Source: Halococcoides cellulosivorans (GTDB lineage Archaea; Halobacteriota; Halobacteria; Halobacteriales; Haloarculaceae). From it: 64,000 nucleotides of DNA. Where the stretch lies: the NCBI RefSeq assembly GCF_003058365.1, contig NZ_CP028858.1:310001-374000 (forward strand), read 5' to 3'. The notes under the pieces are model-generated. The model did no database searches. It saw only the letters and a program-made list of their open reading frames with translations, and had not been told where the DNA came from. Both the position numbers and the translations under genes were made by a program. Positions 48,647 to 55,580 of the stretch are shown here, in pieces. Each line of letters opens with the position of its first letter. Position 1 is the first letter of the stretch.

Positions 48647-50836
48647 TCAGACCAGCTCGAACAGCGCGAGGACGTCCTGGAGGTCGAGGTCACCCGTGCC
48701 GTCGAAGTCGTACGCCGCCGGGTGGTCGGTGACGCTCCGTTCGTCCATCGTTCGAAACAACGTGTTCACGTCCGCGAAGTCCAGTTTCCCGTTCGCGTTG
48801 AGGTCTTCGTAGAGTCCGTCCCCGTCTCGGTCCCGGGGAACGACCCCCCGAATCGGATCGAGGCGGTGCTCTGTGGTGGTCTGGGTCCCGTGTACTGGCC
48901 CGGTTTCGCGGACCGTCGCCGAACCGACCGACCGCGTCCCCGATGGGATGAGTCTGAGCTGGTATATCAGCGACTCACTCTCGGTGAAGCCTCTGAGGCG
49001 TGGGCGGTCGTAATGGGGCCACAGCTCTGGGCTGACCCCGGTCCGGACGCTCAGGTCCAGGTCGTACTGGCCGCCCGCGATACCGATCCGATCGAGGTCG
49101 ACGAGTCGGGTGGTTCGCTCGACGGCGACGGCTCCATCGACGGTGATCTCCGAGGCTGCCGTCTGGATCGCCGGCCGTTCGTTGACCGCTTCGACGCGTC
49201 GGTCGACGAACGTCGTGTCGAGGTGGTAGTTCAGCACGCGCTCGCCGGTGGCCGTCGTGGTCGTCCCGTGGACATGCCAGAGTCCGGCCCGCCCCCACTC
49301 CGCGACCGTAATCTGATCGACGGTCGCCTCCGGATCGACCGTGGCCTCCAGGCGGTACCGCCTCGTGGCGACGTCCTCGGAGCAGACTCGCCCATAATTC
49401 GGTCGGCGCGCCCCCATCACTGCGAGTTTGAGGTGGCCATCGGCGTGTCTCGCTTCGGCCAGACGGATCTCGTTACACGAACTCGACCCGTACACCATCT
49501 GCCCCGTGACCGTGATCGTCTCCCCGTCGACGGAGACCGCGGGGTACTCCTCACTGCCCGTGGGATCTCCCTCCATCGTCACGTCGATGGCGTCGATGGC
49601 GTCCGGGCGGTCGACCGGCGGGTGCAGATATTCGACCGATCGACGGGGGTACTTTGCGTCGGACCACCCCTCCTTTCTGACGACGACCGTGTCGATCTGA
49701 TCGGTTCCCACGACTTCGATCTCACAGCGGTGCCCGTCGCCGTCGCCCGGACAGGGGATCGCTGACGGGGGGTCGGGGATCGGTTCGATCGCGACCGAAA
49801 GGAGGCCCCGATCCTGGTGAATACTCGTCGGCGTGACCGCGAAACAGTCTGTGTCGGGGTCGACCGCCGGCACCACGATCTGGACGCGATCGCCATCGAA
49901 CGACACGCGCGGTTCGGGTTCGGGTGGCTCCATCGGGGTGGTCCGCCAGTCCAGGCTGGCGTCTGCAATCCCACCCGTACTGATCGGCATCGGTGGGTTC
50001 GAGATCAACCGATGGGCGAGTGTCGTCCGGCGCGAGTCGGGCGTCCGCTCGACCACAGACAGCATCTCGGGAACGGAGTCGACGGTGAGCGTGACGGTGT
50101 AGCCCACGGCCTCGGTCTCGGGACAGTCTCGGTCGCCCGGTGGTCGGCGCGCGAGTTCGAGGACGAGGTGGTCCCCATAGTCGAGATGGAGGGCCGCGAT
50201 CTGGGGCAATCCACAGGGTTCGGTGGCGGCCATCGCACCGCTCACCTGGATCTGGCCGGACCCGAGGGTGATCTCCGGGTCTCGTGGGCTGTCGGCAGGA
50301 GAGTGACTCACCTGGCGGTCGGTAATGCCGATCCGAAACGAGTTCCAGTCGTCGTAGGGGTAGTGACGCTCGCGCTCACCATCGCCCGGGGGGTCGACGA
50401 CCACGACCGTGGGCGTCGTCTTCACGTGGATCTCGTACGCGTAGACGTAGGCGTCGTCCGCGGGGCAGTCCGGGGCCGGTTCGGTGGTGAGATCGACCGT
50501 CAACTGGCGTCGGTCGGTGTCGAACGTGGCTCCCGCTGGCGTGACGCGCCGACAGGACTCCTCGGGCGTGAATGCGCCACGGACGACGATCTGATCGTCG
50601 GACCCCTCGACCCGTGGTTCGGTGTCGATATCGTCACGCCCGAACCCCCCGCGAAACGACGTCAGGCGGATCTGATCGACGCGGAGATCCTGGGTCTCGG
50701 CGGTCACCGCCGTCGCCTGCGGCCCGAGGCCAGCGACCAGCCCGACACTCCCGAGTGCGGCGAGCACCTCCCGGCGTGTCGACTGCCTCTCCGCATTCGA
50801 TTCCCCCCGGCCCGACGGTGGCGTCTCGACTGGCAT
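48647..50836 (-). CDS. Tat-exported protein with C-terminal dockerin-like domain
   Basis: 729 aa. Tat signal RREVLAALGSVGLVAGLG near residues 21-38, so it is folded before export. Residues ~45-640 contain about five beta-rich units of ~110-130 residues that recur with patterns such as DQIRLTSFRGGFG and DQIVVRGAFTPEESCRRV, many with a Cys pair. The last ~70 residues hold two dockerin calcium loops, DLNANGKLDFADVNTLF and DFDGTGDLDLQDVLALF. No cohesin gene is in the window. Ligand and partner unknown. Confidence 0.82.
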   Translation of the reverse strand: MPVETPPSGRGESNAERQSTRREVLAALGSVGLVAGLGPQATAVTAETQDLRVDQIRLTSFRGGFGRDDIDTEPRVEGSDDQIVVRGAFTPEESCRRVTPAGATFDTDRRQLTVDLTTEPAPDCPADDAYVYAYEIHVKTTPTVVVVDPPGDGERERHYPYDDWNSFRIGITDRQVSHSPADSPRDPEITLGSGQIQVSGAMAATEPCGLPQIAALHLDYGDHLVLELARRPPGDRDCPETEAVGYTVTLTVDSVPEMLSVVERTPDSRRTTLAHRLISNPPMPISTGGIADASLDWRTTPMEPPEPEPRVSFDGDRVQIVVPAVDPDTDCFAVTPTSIHQDRGLLSVAIEPIPDPPSAIPCPGDGDGHRCEIEVVGTDQIDTVVVRKEGWSDAKYPRRSVEYLHPPVDRPDAIDAIDVTMEGDPTGSEEYPAVSVDGETITVTGQMVYGSSSCNEIRLAEARHADGHLKLAVMGARRPNYGRVCSEDVATRRYRLEATVDPEATVDQITVAEWGRAGLWHVHGTTTTATGERVLNYHLDTTFVDRRVEAVNERPAIQTAASEITVDGAVAVERTTRLVDLDRIGIAGGQYDLDLSVRTGVSPELWPHYDRPRLRGFTESESLIYQLRLIPSGTRSVGSATVRETGPVHGTQTTTEHRLDPIRGVVPRDRDGDGLYEDLNANGKLDFADVNTLFRTMDERSVTDHPAAYDFDGTGDLDLQDVLALFELV

Positions 50837-50931
50837 GGGTGTACGTCCCCTCTCTTACAACGAATTTCGGGTTGAAATAACCACCCGATGTATCGAACGG
50901 TCGAGGAATTGACTTCACCGAAGAGACGGTG

Positions 50932-51150
50932 CTACTCGTCCGTGTAGACGATCTCGCTGATCTCGTGGCGCGGGTTCTCGTCGTCGTCACCCTCGTACTT
51001 GTAGACGGCGTCGCCCTCGTCGCCGGTCGCGGCGTGCGAGCCGTCACATAGCGGGACATCGTCGCTCAGCCCGCACATGCAGATCGCGGCCTGGCCGTCG
51101 GGGTCGATCATCTCGGGACCGGTCGCTTCGTGAGTCACTTCGCGTGCCAT
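50932..51150 (-). CDS. CDGSH-type iron-sulfur protein
   Basis: 72 aa. CMCGLSDDVPLCDGSH contains the [2Fe-2S] ligands C24, C26, C35 and H39 of a CDGSH cluster. Single, small, cytoplasmic form; a redox or cluster-transfer role is known for the family. The preceding VTHEATGPEMID and following AVYKYEGDD are usual flanks. Between two secreted-protein genes without obvious link. Confidence 0.92.
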   Translation of the reverse strand: MAREVTHEATGPEMIDPDGQAAICMCGLSDDVPLCDGSHAATGDEGDAVYKYEGDDDENPRHEISEIVYTDE

Positions 51151-51219
51151 GGACTAGCGTGTGACGGGATGGCGCATAAAACTACGGTCGGGAAAGGGCG
51201 GTGGGGATCGGCGCCCGCG

Positions 51220-51393
51220 TCACTCCTCGTCGAGCGCCTCGCGATACCCCTCGCGGGCCTCGCCGAGGAGGGTCCGTGGGCCGAAATCGCCGTTGAACAG
51301 TCTGTACCAGAGCACTCCCTGGAGGACGAGAATGACGAGGCCCATGCCGATGACGGTGACCCGCATCACCCACTCGGCCAGTTCGAGTGTCAC
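51220..51393 (-). CDS. 57-aa single-pass membrane protein
   Basis: Reads MTLELAEWVMRVTV, then a membrane helix IGMGLVILVLQGVLWYRL, then the cytoplasmic tail NGDFGPRTLLGEAREGYREA. GTG start. The gene is too short for usual ORF cut-offs, but the helix, the balanced codon use and the fit between neighbours (70 bases to CDGSH, 86 to the phosphorylase) argue for a real gene. Function unknown. Confidence 0.65.
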   Translation of the reverse strand: MTLELAEWVMRVTVIGMGLVILVLQGVLWYRLFNGDFGPRTLLGEAREGYREALDEE

Positions 51394-51479
51394 GTTCGTC
51401 GGTGAGACGCGGAGCTCGAAAACGGTGGCGGTGCCGTCGGCGTGTCGATATCACGTGCGGGCGCTCTGCTCGATCCCGC

Positions 51480-53834
51480 TCAGCCCATCACGACGCGCAC
51501 GTCGTGGGTGTCGCCGTCCTCGAAGACCGGCACGACATCCCCGTCGATTTCCTCACCGTCGACCTCGATCTCGGCGACGCCCGATTCGACGCTATCGGGG
51601 TTCTCCACGGTAATCTCGTAGGTCGCGCCGCGGAACTCCCGGGTCACCTCGAATGCGTCCCAGTCGGCCGGAATCGTCGGGTCGACGACGAGGCCGTCGA
51701 AGGTGGGCCGGACGCCGATGAGGTACTGCGTCCCGGCGACGTACGCCCACGAAGCCGTCCCCGTCAGCCAGGAGTTCGACGCCTCACCGAAGTCGGGGTG
51801 GGTCGGGCCGAGGACGTTCTGACTGTAGACGTACGGCTCGGTCAGGCGCTGGTCCGCAATGTCCTCGTGTTCGAGCGGATTGAGTTGTCGGTAGTACTGG
51901 TGGGCGCGCTCGCCGTCACCGAGCATCGCGGCGGCGACGATCGACCAGGTGTGGGCGTGACAGAAGATTCCGCCGTTCTCTTTCGCACCCGGGGGATAGG
52001 TTGTCGTCCCACCGATCGAATCGAGCGTGCCCTCCACGTCGTAGGGTGGGTCGATCAGCGCGAAGCCGTACTCGGTGTTCAGCCGATCGTGAGCGGCCGA
52101 GAGCGCCTGTTCGCCGCGATCCTGGTCGGCGATGCCGCCGAGAATCGACCAGGTCTGGGCGTTGAGCGTGATCTGGTTGAACTCGCTCTCGCTCGCGCCG
52201 ATCGGGGTCCCGTCGTCGTCGTACCCGCGCATGTAGTAGTCGCCGTCCCAGGCCACGTCGTCGATGAGTTCGGCCATCGCGTCGCGATCCGCGCGGTACT
52301 CGTTGGCGGTCGACTCCTTTCCCAGGTGCTCGAACAACCCAGCGGCCTCGTCGAGCGCCCGACAGTACAGCGCGCCGGTCATCATACTCGCGGCCTTGCC
52401 GCTGCCGTGGTCGGCGTTGAGCGTGTCGTTCCAGTCCGAATACCCGAGGCGTGGCAGGCCGTCTTTGCCGCGGTGCTCGTCGGTGAACGCGAGCGCGCGC
52501 TCGATGTGCTCGCGGACGGGCGCGGGATCGGTGTCCTCGAAGTCGATCTCCCGATCGAGAAAGTCCGTGTCGCCGGTCTCTTTGACGTACTGGACGGTCC
52601 CGAGGACGAGCCAGAGGTGGTCGTCGGAGAACCACTGCGGCTTTTCGGGCTCTTCGTTGGCGATGCCGACGTCGCCCTCGCCGCTGAGCGGGTAGACCTG
52701 GTGCCAGGTGTGGCCATCCTCGAACTGCAGGCCCCAGAGCATCTCCAGGGTCTCCCGAACCTGATCGGGGACGGCGTGGACGATCGAGAGGGTGTCCTGG
52801 CCCGAGTCACGCGTGCCCATGCCACGCCCGAGTCCGGCCTGGTACAGCGACGCCGACCGCGACCAGTAGAGCGTCGAGCGACACTGGATGGGGTTCCAGA
52901 CGTTGAGCATTGCGTTCAGGTTCTCGTCGGGCGTGTCCACGGTCATCGTCGCGAGGTAGTCGTCCCAGTCGTCGCCGAGCGCCTCGAACGCCTCGTCGAC
53001 CGCCGCGGGGTCGGTGTACTCCTCGATGACGTCGTCGTCGGCTTCGGGCGCGGTGAGATAGACGATTCGCTCGCTCTCGCCCGGTTCGAGGGTGATCTCG
53101 TGGGTGAACGATCCGATGACGTTGCCGTGGGTCGAAATCGAGTCGCGTGGCGTGCCCTTGGCGACGACCTCCGGCGATTCGAGTCCCTCGTAGATCCCGA
53201 CGAATTCCTCGCGATCGGTGTCGAACCCGACGGGATGGCCCGACGTGGCGTGGACGTAGTCGATCTCCATCGCCGAGGAGACCATCGTGATCCGGTTCGG
53301 CGCGGCGTCGGCCTGCATGATCTGGCCCGTCCAGTCCAGATTCGTCTGGTCCATGTAGGCGTCGGGGAAGGAGAACTCGACGTAGCTGTAGGTCTCGATC
53401 GTTCGCTCACGATCGGAGTCGTTGGTCAGTTCGAGGTCCCAGACCTCGCAGGTCTCGCCCGGCGGGACGAAGTAGGTGATTGCGCCCGAAATGCCGTCGT
53501 TGGACCCTTCGATCGTGGTGTAGCCGGGCCCGTGGCGACACTCGTAGTCGTCCAGGTCCGCTTTGACGGGCTGATAGGTCGGTGACCAGAACTCTTCGGA
53601 CTCGGCGTCACGAAAATAGACGTAGCGTCCGGGCTGATCCCGCGGGATCGCGTTGTATCGGTAGCGCGTGACGCGCTGGTTGCGCGGATCCTCGTGGAAA
53701 CTGTAGCCGCCGCCGGTGTTGGTGACGATGCCGCCGTAGACACCTTCACCGAGGTAGTTCGTCCACGGTCTGGGGGTTTCGGGGTCGGTCACGACGTACT
53801 CGCGGGTCGACTCGTCGTAGTGGCCGTAGGACAT
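51480..53834 (-). CDS. GH94-family glycoside phosphorylase (cellobiose-phosphorylase-like)
   Basis: 784 aa, the size of cellobiose phosphorylase. N-terminal beta-sandwich (1-~290, with RPWTNYLGEGVYGGIVTNTG), linker, alpha6/alpha6 barrel holding the acid YSDWNDTLN, GLGRGMGTRDSGQDTL and YPPGAKENGGIFCHAHTW, then a C-terminal beta domain. Such enzymes split beta-glucosides with phosphate to give sugar 1-phosphate, saving ATP. Cytoplasmic (no signal). Its place between dockerin-bearing secreted proteins suggests use of cellulose-derived or related sugars; exact linkage unknown. Confidence 0.9.
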   Translation of the reverse strand: MSYGHYDESTREYVVTDPETPRPWTNYLGEGVYGGIVTNTGGGYSFHEDPRNQRVTRYRYNAIPRDQPGRYVYFRDAESEEFWSPTYQPVKADLDDYECRHGPGYTTIEGSNDGISGAITYFVPPGETCEVWDLELTNDSDRERTIETYSYVEFSFPDAYMDQTNLDWTGQIMQADAAPNRITMVSSAMEIDYVHATSGHPVGFDTDREEFVGIYEGLESPEVVAKGTPRDSISTHGNVIGSFTHEITLEPGESERIVYLTAPEADDDVIEEYTDPAAVDEAFEALGDDWDDYLATMTVDTPDENLNAMLNVWNPIQCRSTLYWSRSASLYQAGLGRGMGTRDSGQDTLSIVHAVPDQVRETLEMLWGLQFEDGHTWHQVYPLSGEGDVGIANEEPEKPQWFSDDHLWLVLGTVQYVKETGDTDFLDREIDFEDTDPAPVREHIERALAFTDEHRGKDGLPRLGYSDWNDTLNADHGSGKAASMMTGALYCRALDEAAGLFEHLGKESTANEYRADRDAMAELIDDVAWDGDYYMRGYDDDGTPIGASESEFNQITLNAQTWSILGGIADQDRGEQALSAAHDRLNTEYGFALIDPPYDVEGTLDSIGGTTTYPPGAKENGGIFCHAHTWSIVAAAMLGDGERAHQYYRQLNPLEHEDIADQRLTEPYVYSQNVLGPTHPDFGEASNSWLTGTASWAYVAGTQYLIGVRPTFDGLVVDPTIPADWDAFEVTREFRGATYEITVENPDSVESGVAEIEVDGEEIDGDVVPVFEDGDTHDVRVVMG

Positions 53835-53894
53835 ACCGCCCGATTCGGGCCGAACGCGTCCTGAGTGTTTCGAAAGACGGTCGGGACCGACCGG

Positions 53895-55580
53895 TCACAC
53901 CGTCTCGAACAGCGCGAGGACGTCCTGGAGGCCGGCCGCGCCGTCGCCGTCGATGTCGAAATACGTCACGAACGCGGTGATGACGCGGTCTTCGGTGTGC
54001 TGGAAGTAGGTGTTCACGTCGGGGAAGTTGATCGTGCCGTCCGCAGAGAGGTCCTCGAAGACGCCGTCGAAGTCGTCGTCCCGCGGGACCGTTCCGTCGA
54101 TCGGTTCGACGGGGAGCGCGCGATCGGCAACGGCAGTCGGTGCGATCGGCGTGTCGGCGGGCGCGGCACTCTCGACCGGCCCGGAGACGTCCGCCGCGGT
54201 CGGGCCGCCGGCCTGCCCCCACCACGAGCCGGTGGTGTTGATCGCCGTCGTGCGCCCGCTCGCCTCGACGACCCGATCCGTCGTCGCGAACTCGCTGGCC
54301 TCGATGTCGATCGACGCCCCACTCGCGCTCCGGACCGTCGGCGCGCTCCCCGTCGAGAGCCACGAGCGACTGACCGAGACCGATCCACTCGCGGGCACGG
54401 CGAGCGCCGCCCGGGTGGCGGTCACGTCGCTGTGGTCGATCCCGACCTGGACGTGTCCCATCGCGTGGACGCCGCGCCAGGCCTCCAGGCTGAGGTCGCT
54501 GGCGTCGAGGGCCGCCCGGGAGGCGTTGACGGCTGTGCGATTCGCCCGGATGCCGGCTCTCGACGCCGAGAACACGCCGTTCGAGAGCGCCAGGCCGTCA
54601 CGACCCGCCGTGACCGAGACCCGCTTCACGCTCGCGTTGGTCGACTCCGCGACGACGCCGTCGGTCCCGGCGTCGATCGCCGTGGCCTCGATCGATGCGT
54701 TGGCGCCGTTGAGGCCGACGCCGACGCTCTCGGCCGTCACGTCACTGCTCGTCAGACTCGCGCCGTTCGCCGTCCAGGCGGCGACGCCGTAGCCCCGGGT
54801 ATCGACGGTCAGATCCGTCAGCGAGGCCGTTCCTGCGATCGTCGTGAGTCCGTCGGCGGGCGAGTAGACCCGAACGGTTTCGACGTTCAGCGAGTCGGCG
54901 CGGACGCCAACCGCCGACCCGTTCGCGACGACGGTACTGTTTCGGATGGAGACGGTCGCTGCCGTCGTGGCGGTGCTCGGTGCGCCCGCCGAGCGACCCG
55001 ACGACATCGCCACGTCGATCCCCCGCCCCTCCGAGTCGATCGTCGTATTCTTGACGGCGAGGTGGCCAGCGGGATACGTCCGGGCGATCCCGTCATCGGT
55101 CGCCCGCAACTCGCTGTTCTCGACGACGACCGGGCCCGTGGCGTTCGTCCCCTCGACGGCGACGCGGGTGTCACCCGCCAGCAGGTCGTCGATTCTGACT
55201 GTGCCCGACGTGTCGACGACGACGGCGGCCTGGGTCGCGCCGATCGCCAGGCCCTCGATGGCGGTCGGGGCCTGTGCGACGACGCCAGCGCCGCCGTCGG
55301 TCGGCCCGCTGCCGGCGATGGTCGCGTTCGGTCCGACGATCCTGACTGGGTCCGTGACGGTGACGTTGCCGGCATAGAGTCCCGATTCGACGTAGACGGT
55401 CCCACCGCTCGGTGCCTGATTCACGCCCTCCTGAATCGTCGTGGCGTTCGCTGCCGAACTGTCTCCGACCACGATGTCGGCCTCTGACGGTGTCACGTCG
55501 GCGGCCGCCCCCGATCCCGCGACGAGTCCGACCCCCAGAACCGTCGCCACCCCGATGAAAAACAGTGTTCTCGCGTTCAT
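53895..55580 (-). CDS. secreted parallel beta-helix protein with dockerin-like C-terminus
   Basis: 561 aa. Sec-type signal (ARTLFFIGVATVLGVGLVAG). Residues ~45-440 show short repeats of turns and strands (VTVTDPVRIVGPNATIAG, VVVENSELRATDDGIA), typical of right-handed parallel beta-helix carbohydrate-binding or lyase proteins; many N-x-S/T sites suggest glycosylation. The C-terminus has two calcium loops, DLSADGTINFPDVNTYF and DIDGDGAAGLQDVLALF, close to those of the 48647-50836 protein. No pectate-lyase active-site pattern recognised. Confidence 0.83.
   Translation of the reverse strand: MNARTLFFIGVATVLGVGLVAGSGAAADVTPSEADIVVGDSSAANATTIQEGVNQAPSGGTVYVESGLYAGNVTVTDPVRIVGPNATIAGSGPTDGGAGVVAQAPTAIEGLAIGATQAAVVVDTSGTVRIDDLLAGDTRVAVEGTNATGPVVVENSELRATDDGIARTYPAGHLAVKNTTIDSEGRGIDVAMSSGRSAGAPSTATTAATVSIRNSTVVANGSAVGVRADSLNVETVRVYSPADGLTTIAGTASLTDLTVDTRGYGVAAWTANGASLTSSDVTAESVGVGLNGANASIEATAIDAGTDGVVAESTNASVKRVSVTAGRDGLALSNGVFSASRAGIRANRTAVNASRAALDASDLSLEAWRGVHAMGHVQVGIDHSDVTATRAALAVPASGSVSVSRSWLSTGSAPTVRSASGASIDIEASEFATTDRVVEASGRTTAINTTGSWWGQAGGPTAADVSGPVESAAPADTPIAPTAVADRALPVEPIDGTVPRDDDFDGVFEDLSADGTINFPDVNTYFQHTEDRVITAFVTYFDIDGDGAAGLQDVLALFETV

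Follow-up and report, generated by a model that had tools for sequence, protein, structure and literature searches.

Bacteria are, to our knowledge, the only source of described cellulosomes apart from anaerobic fungi, which have theirs in another form; archaeal cohesin-dockerin pairs are known to us from Archaeoglobus and from anaerobic methanotrophic (ANME) archaea, where they occur without cellulases. Here, we analyzed a stretch of 64,000 nucleotides of the Halococcoides cellulosivorans genome (C1:310001-374000, hereafter the window; the genome is a single contig, C1, of 2,723,120 bases), in which two exported proteins ending in dockerin modules lie on either side of a gene for a GH94 phosphorylase. 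We propose that these proteins are clients of an unreported haloarchaeal cohesin-dockerin system at the cell surface, with predicted binding between the two kinds of module and a cellulosome-like expansion in cellulose degraders, and we consider this the probable reading of the data.

The type I cellulosome of Clostridium thermocellum and its relatives resembles the present system in its dozens of dockerin-bearing enzymes, its multi-cohesin proteins, its anchored cohesins and the fold of its cohesins. In contrast to it, the haloarchaeal system is archaeal and predicted from its genes; its dockerin has an extra DPDGDGLYED segment and repeats that are unlike at loop positions 10-11 (FP and xQ), its cohesins are mostly under Pfam detection, its anchors are PGF-CTERM signals or hydrophobic tails, and no carbohydrate-binding module (CBM) is recognised on its three-cohesin proteins. 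The non-cellulosomal cohesin of Archaeoglobus fulgidus (2xdh) shares the fold, and the Archaeoglobus genes are laid out much like one canonical pair in Halococcoides (a cohesin-dockerin gene next to an anchored cohesin gene), whereas the haloarchaeal type is divergent in sequence and expanded on carbohydrate-active enzymes. For ANME archaea, the accessible text of PMC9012536 describes genome-predicted proteins that combine a dockerin with as many as 5 cohesins, the common dockerin proteins being transporter binding proteins and S-layer proteins; the dockerins of Halococcoides sit instead on cellulases and other hydrolases. H. cellulosivorans HArcel1 grows on cellulose according to PMC10267330, whose accessible part makes no mention of a dockerin or cohesin. 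Likewise, the accessible portions of the open literature on dockerin, cohesin or cellulosome in haloarchaea contain no report of such a cohesin-dockerin system that we could find.

Dockerin modules in the window and the genome

The features of the window that concern us are as follows.

48647..50836, reverse strand: 729-residue Tat-like (twin-arginine translocation) exported protein with repeated Cys-paired beta units and a C-terminal haloarchaeal dockerin (open reading frame and profile match)
48650..48838, reverse strand: haloarchaeal dockerin module (HCD) of the 729-residue protein (A1 profile, E 6.4e-30; no Pfam dockerin match)
51480..53834, reverse strand: GH94 phosphorylase, 784 residues, context gene (Pfam Glyco_hydro_94, E 7e-128)
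53895..55580, reverse strand: 561-residue Sec-like exported NosD/beta-helix protein with a C-terminal haloarchaeal dockerin (Pfam NosD, E 2.6e-7)
53898..54086, reverse strand: haloarchaeal dockerin module (HCD) of the 561-residue protein (A1 profile, E 1.8e-26; Pfam Dockerin_1, E 0.031)

An earlier, sequence-only reading had described this arrangement, namely a GH94 phosphorylase between two proteins, the second a beta-helix protein, that both carry a two-loop dockerin module at the C-terminus, the final helix being nearly the same in the two. The open reading frame list agrees with its gene coordinates, the Pfam matches above with its enzyme and its beta-helix, and the C-terminal sequences (LQDVLALFELV in one protein, LQDVLALFETV in the other) and the A1 profile with its dockerins. 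Pfam Dockerin_1 matches only the 561-residue protein of the pair, below its cut-off. The A1 profile, which was built from 48 module copies and itself contains both window rows, scores the two modules at E 6e-30 and 2e-26 over the whole genome, far beyond chance. The 729-residue protein begins with the twin-arginine motif TRREVLAALG, which the NCBIfam TAT model matches only at E 0.54, and a direct reading of its sequence shows four or more repeated beta units, each containing a Cys pair.

The two proteins belong to a large set. Across the genome, Pfam Dockerin_1 gave 69 matches at E<=1, 49 of them over its cut-off, and A1 found 70 copies at E <1e-23 as well as a single canonical dockerin (E 1e-5). 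The module consists of the N-terminal DPDGDGLYED extension, two calcium-binding F-hand repeats with a linker, as is characteristic of dockerins, and a C-terminal V or I; in the A1 alignment, each of the two loops has an invariant D as residue 1 and as residue 12 (48/48 rows). When A1 was searched against the Protein Data Bank (PDB), the 60 matches listed were only EF-hand proteins, e.g. calmodulin. All but three copies (67/70) end no more than 3 residues before the stop codon, their final residue being V in 58 and I in 9, and the other three lie near the N-terminus, behind the signal region. These N-terminal copies occur in loci L034, L036 and L050, in frames of 2285, 1021 and 591 residues, the last being a PKD-GH18 protein.

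As in a cellulosome, many of the carriers are enzymes of plant polysaccharide breakdown: among the 70, we identified GH5 (22), GH10 (5), GH9 (3) and GH43 (2), as well as SASA (2), CBM6 (2), CBM35 (2), CBM3 (2), fn3 (9), ricin-type (4) and NosD (3) domains (Pfam E<=1e-4; counts among the 25 families listed out of 55). Of the 68 carrier frames examined, one of which is the canonical dockerin protein, 54 have a Tat-like motif by a crude regular expression that also picks up some Sec-like frames. A cohesin of the haloarchaeal type is present in the same chain in 5 of the 70 dockerin proteins and absent from 65.

Positions 11, 14 and 18 of the first loop-helix, which together with 10, 17 and 22 we take to be the cohesin-contact region of bacterial dockerins, are occupied in the 70 local copies by P (63), N (68) and Q (65), respectively. 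In a second dockerin-rich haloarchaeon (G103), the same positions carry N (26), V (28) and E (26) among the 30 of its 47 copies that were compared, and they are mixed among 44 dockerin copies on PhoX phosphatases from many species. Other exposed positions vary widely in all three sets. Such a per-species residue pattern would fit one shared partner set in each species. An explanation of dockerin likeness as pure selection was rejected on codon saturation, the copies sharing some recent descent.

Cohesins of the haloarchaeal type

The genome encodes 17 cohesin domains in 11 proteins, 2 of which pass Pfam, the remainder being found with our own profiles. The statement of the sequence-only reading that no cohesin is present is thus correct for the window, where we found none, and does not hold for the genome. 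Its guess of a shared cell-surface receptor gains support and is made concrete by these divergent cohesins, several of which have predicted membrane anchors. Two features outside the window are referred to below.

C1:381575-383887: 770-residue protein with three cohesins and a dockerin, the nearest cohesin to the window (frame start 7.6 kb past its right end)
C1:2197182-2198077 (C1:2196-2198 kb; L067:8102-10245): canonical cohesin-dockerin pair, two adjacent genes over the Pfam Cohesin cut-off

The haloarchaeal type, detected with profiles A4 and A6, accounts for 15 domains in 9 proteins, whose lengths are given here as open-frame lengths. As in a scaffoldin, several of these proteins carry more than one cohesin: there are three each in the 770- and 719-residue proteins and two each in those of 1672 and 1369 residues, while the proteins of 566, 495, 332, 913 and 1298 residues have one each. 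The first of the three cohesins of the 719-residue protein is weak (E 3e-9), and the N-terminal domain of the 770-residue protein is without a family match. No CBM was recognised by Pfam in either three-cohesin protein. Anchoring at the cell surface is indicated by motif, with PGF-CTERM above the NCBIfam cut-off in the 332- and 1672-residue cohesin proteins and a C-terminal hydrophobic segment, judged by eye, in the 913- and 227-residue cohesin frames. By eye, the gene order in one region is that of the 719-residue protein (with a Tat-like signal), a gap of ~40 bases, the anchored 913-residue protein and a GH3-like dockerin protein. The 719-residue protein (L084:10440-12596) has at its end a degenerate stretch resembling half a dockerin, GDYLIGDISLEDAVTVMRAYFF, which perhaps docks on the neighbouring 913-residue cohesin. 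Both the 1672-residue (L085:5663-10678) and the 913-residue (L084:7684-10422) anchored proteins contain repeated Ig-like units of the SLDGIPTDWTIESYD type without a clear Pfam family, and in the former there is also a long stretch of TDEPG repeats.

Only the canonical pair passes the Pfam Cohesin cut-off, the third match scoring 16.2 bits against a cut-off of 24.1. Its first gene encodes, by eye, a beta-helix, a cohesin and a canonical dockerin, and its second encodes one cohesin together with a hydrophobic anchor at the C-terminus; the pair is distinct in sequence from the haloarchaeal type. The latter falls short of the Pfam cut-off, with 10 of 66 homologues matching at E<=1 (best 1.7e-6). 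Our first profile, A2, combined the two Pfam cohesins, one weak match and two stretches of the 1369-residue protein chosen by eye, and gave 17 genome matches. A6, which was assembled from cohesins of other species (66 of 83 rows, near-duplicates excluded, the rows themselves having been found with A4), recovered the A2 components picked from the genome other than the Pfam pair. Neither A4 nor A6 recovered the two Pfam cohesins at E 1e-3, and the two cohesin groups are therefore joined by fold, not sequence.

An AlphaFold2 model of a homologous cohesin (L099, Haloarcula amylolytica; A6, 66 rows) reached a predicted local distance difference test score (pLDDT) of 95.2 and a predicted template modelling score (pTM) of 0.88. 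All 50 PDB matches listed by Foldseek are cohesins (E 3.4e-10 and TM 0.78 for the best), the A. fulgidus 2xdh domain being among the best (Foldseek E 7e-10, VIA-align Z 15.2). In VIA-align, 49 of the 50 matches listed are cohesin or cohesin-like entries with Z from 15.8 to 11.4, and the next is a CLIPPER adhesin domain (Z 11.0). The local cohesins (A4) align to A6 in hhalign with a probability of 99.8 and E 2e-30. From this model and the hhalign link, the haloarchaeal type is predicted to have the cohesin beta-sandwich fold. A combined model of a cohesin-dockerin tail gave a pLDDT of 88 and a pTM of 0.67, its cohesin part again matching cohesins.

Occurrence in haloarchaea and the PhoX gene pair

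We searched 292 haloarchaeal genomes for the dockerin (E<=1e-8) and the cohesin (E<=1e-6) and found the former in 127 and the latter in 116. Both occur in 112 genomes, the dockerin only in 15, the cohesin only in 4 and neither in 161 (Fisher p 5e-58, with species not independent). The two counts correlate (rho 0.60 over the 112 genomes), dockerin, cohesin and GH5 counts being lower bounds in rich genomes, where at most 21, 14 and 8 candidates, respectively, were scored. Between one and three dockerins are present in most genomes, compared to 70 in Halococcoides, 47 in G103 and at least 16 in G264. Other profiles revealed convincing cohesins in three of the dockerin-only genomes (A6 in G041 and G275; Pfam, which covered 13 of the 15, in G015) and weak matches in G045 and G078, with none in the other 10. 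G078 and G088 have 7 and 5 dockerin copies, respectively, together with several GH5 genes and no clear cohesin. The link of GH5 to the dockerin across genomes is partial.

Multi-cohesin proteins are not limited to Halococcoides and occur in two related genomes that each encode several GH5 proteins. In G264, adjacent genes encode an anchored 241-residue cohesin protein, a 1040-residue protein in which five cohesins are combined with a dockerin, a GH5-cohesin-dockerin protein and a GH5-dockerin protein, and in G103 a frame cut by a contig end, amid dockerin genes, contains GH5 and at least 5 cohesins.

In ordinary haloarchaea, the usual locus encodes a PhoX phosphatase (Pfam E 9e-18) that is exported by the Tat route and has a cohesin-dockerin tail, and next to it a protein made up of a signal, a cohesin, a linker and a C-terminal hydrophobic anchor. 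Among 79 PhoX loci (L099-L177), the tail and the neighbouring cohesin gene occur together in 37, the tail only in 6, the gene only in 1 (at a contig break) and neither in 35. On a tree of the PhoX core (82 rows) the tail requires 10 changes, and in 9 independent pairs that differ in the tail the neighbouring gene follows the same way in 7-9 and the opposite way in none (median p 0.008; L108 of Haloarcula japonica was dropped for its contig break, and L129 was kept as a row without a downstream gene). PhoX phosphatases gain or lose the tail together with the neighbouring anchored cohesin gene. The prediction of an unlinked anchored cohesin partner for tail-only PhoX loci failed in 5 of 5 genomes, and a mirror-tree test for a trans partner did not favour the neighbour over the cis cohesin.

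Proposed surface system, its alternatives and the GH94 gene

We suggest that the C-terminal module is a dockerin that would bind, probably with calcium, to cohesin domains displayed outside the cell. The 70 dockerin proteins, which mostly bear export signals and include many polysaccharide hydrolases, would dock on the 15 haloarchaeal-type cohesins. Candidate anchored receptors are the 332- and 1672-residue proteins (PGF-CTERM) and the 913-residue protein (C-terminal hydrophobic anchor), and the 770-residue protein (three cohesins and a dockerin) and the 719-residue protein (three cohesins, in tandem with the anchored 913-residue gene) could serve to assemble multi-enzyme complexes. It is quite possible, if short of probable, that Halococcoides and at least two other haloarchaea (G103 and G264) have true surface cellulosomes that evolved within archaea from an ancestral tethering pair such as that of PhoX, with species-specific recognition codes working in saturated salt. 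As candidate partners can now be named, the question of whether archaea make cellulosomes becomes directly testable, with the PhoX pair in Haloarcula as an easy first case, and the system may be a source of salt-tolerant cohesin-dockerin parts.

Several observations weigh against this proposal. PDB sequence searches with the cohesin profiles gave no convincing cohesin (A4 best a xylanase, E 0.46; A6 a cohesin only at E 0.44), and fold prediction was therefore used. Of 127 dockerin genomes, 12 are without a convincing cohesin by three profiles, including one with 7 copies and one with 5, and two GH5-rich genomes (G160 and G274) have no dockerin match. At the six tail-only PhoX loci, in five genomes, the only cohesins are those in the PhoX tails themselves, and the divergence among dockerins correlates better with that of the cis cohesin (partial r 0.60) than with that of the neighbouring one (0.45). 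Finally, the local copies are partly recent duplicates (synonymous identity 0.589 vs. 0.435 expected), and their likeness is therefore not all selection.

In a weaker form of our proposal, and one compatible with it, each dockerin protein would occupy an anchored cohesin by itself, without assembly into a multi-enzyme complex. The commonest PhoX layout is of this kind, with one dockerin protein beside one anchored single-cohesin gene, and both local three-cohesin proteins are without a recognised CBM; however, proteins carrying 3 cohesins in Halococcoides, 5 in G264 and at least 5 in the GH5 frame of G103 make pairwise tethering alone unlikely. We consider it improbable that the ligand of the module is a substrate or the S-layer and not a cohesin. 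A substrate-binding role for haloarchaeal type I dockerins is in print, in the accessible text of PMC10963439 and repeated in that of PMC13260240, perhaps because the cohesins are under Pfam detection, and the 12 genomes with a dockerin and no convincing cohesin would suit it. Nevertheless, the carriers span many substrates (cellulases, the GH18 protein, esterases, beta-helix proteins and PhoX phosphatases), and the co-occurrence over 292 genomes together with the neighbouring cohesin gene at PhoX loci argues for cohesins as partners. The least probable alternative, an intramolecular calcium-stabilised C-terminal cap, already raised by the sequence-only reading, or cis or homotypic pairing with a preceding cohesin, agrees with the adjacent PhoX cohesin and dockerin, the five genomes without other cohesins and the closer tracking of the cis cohesin, and may apply to the 5 of 70 chains with both modules, but it cannot explain the 65 copies whose chain contains no cohesin, three copies lie near the N-terminus, and the relative placement of cohesin and dockerin is loosely fixed in the tail model.

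The GH94 protein encoded between the two dockerin proteins of the window is not a dockerin carrier. It has no visible signal peptide, looks cytoplasmic and may serve in the use of imported cello-oligosaccharides.

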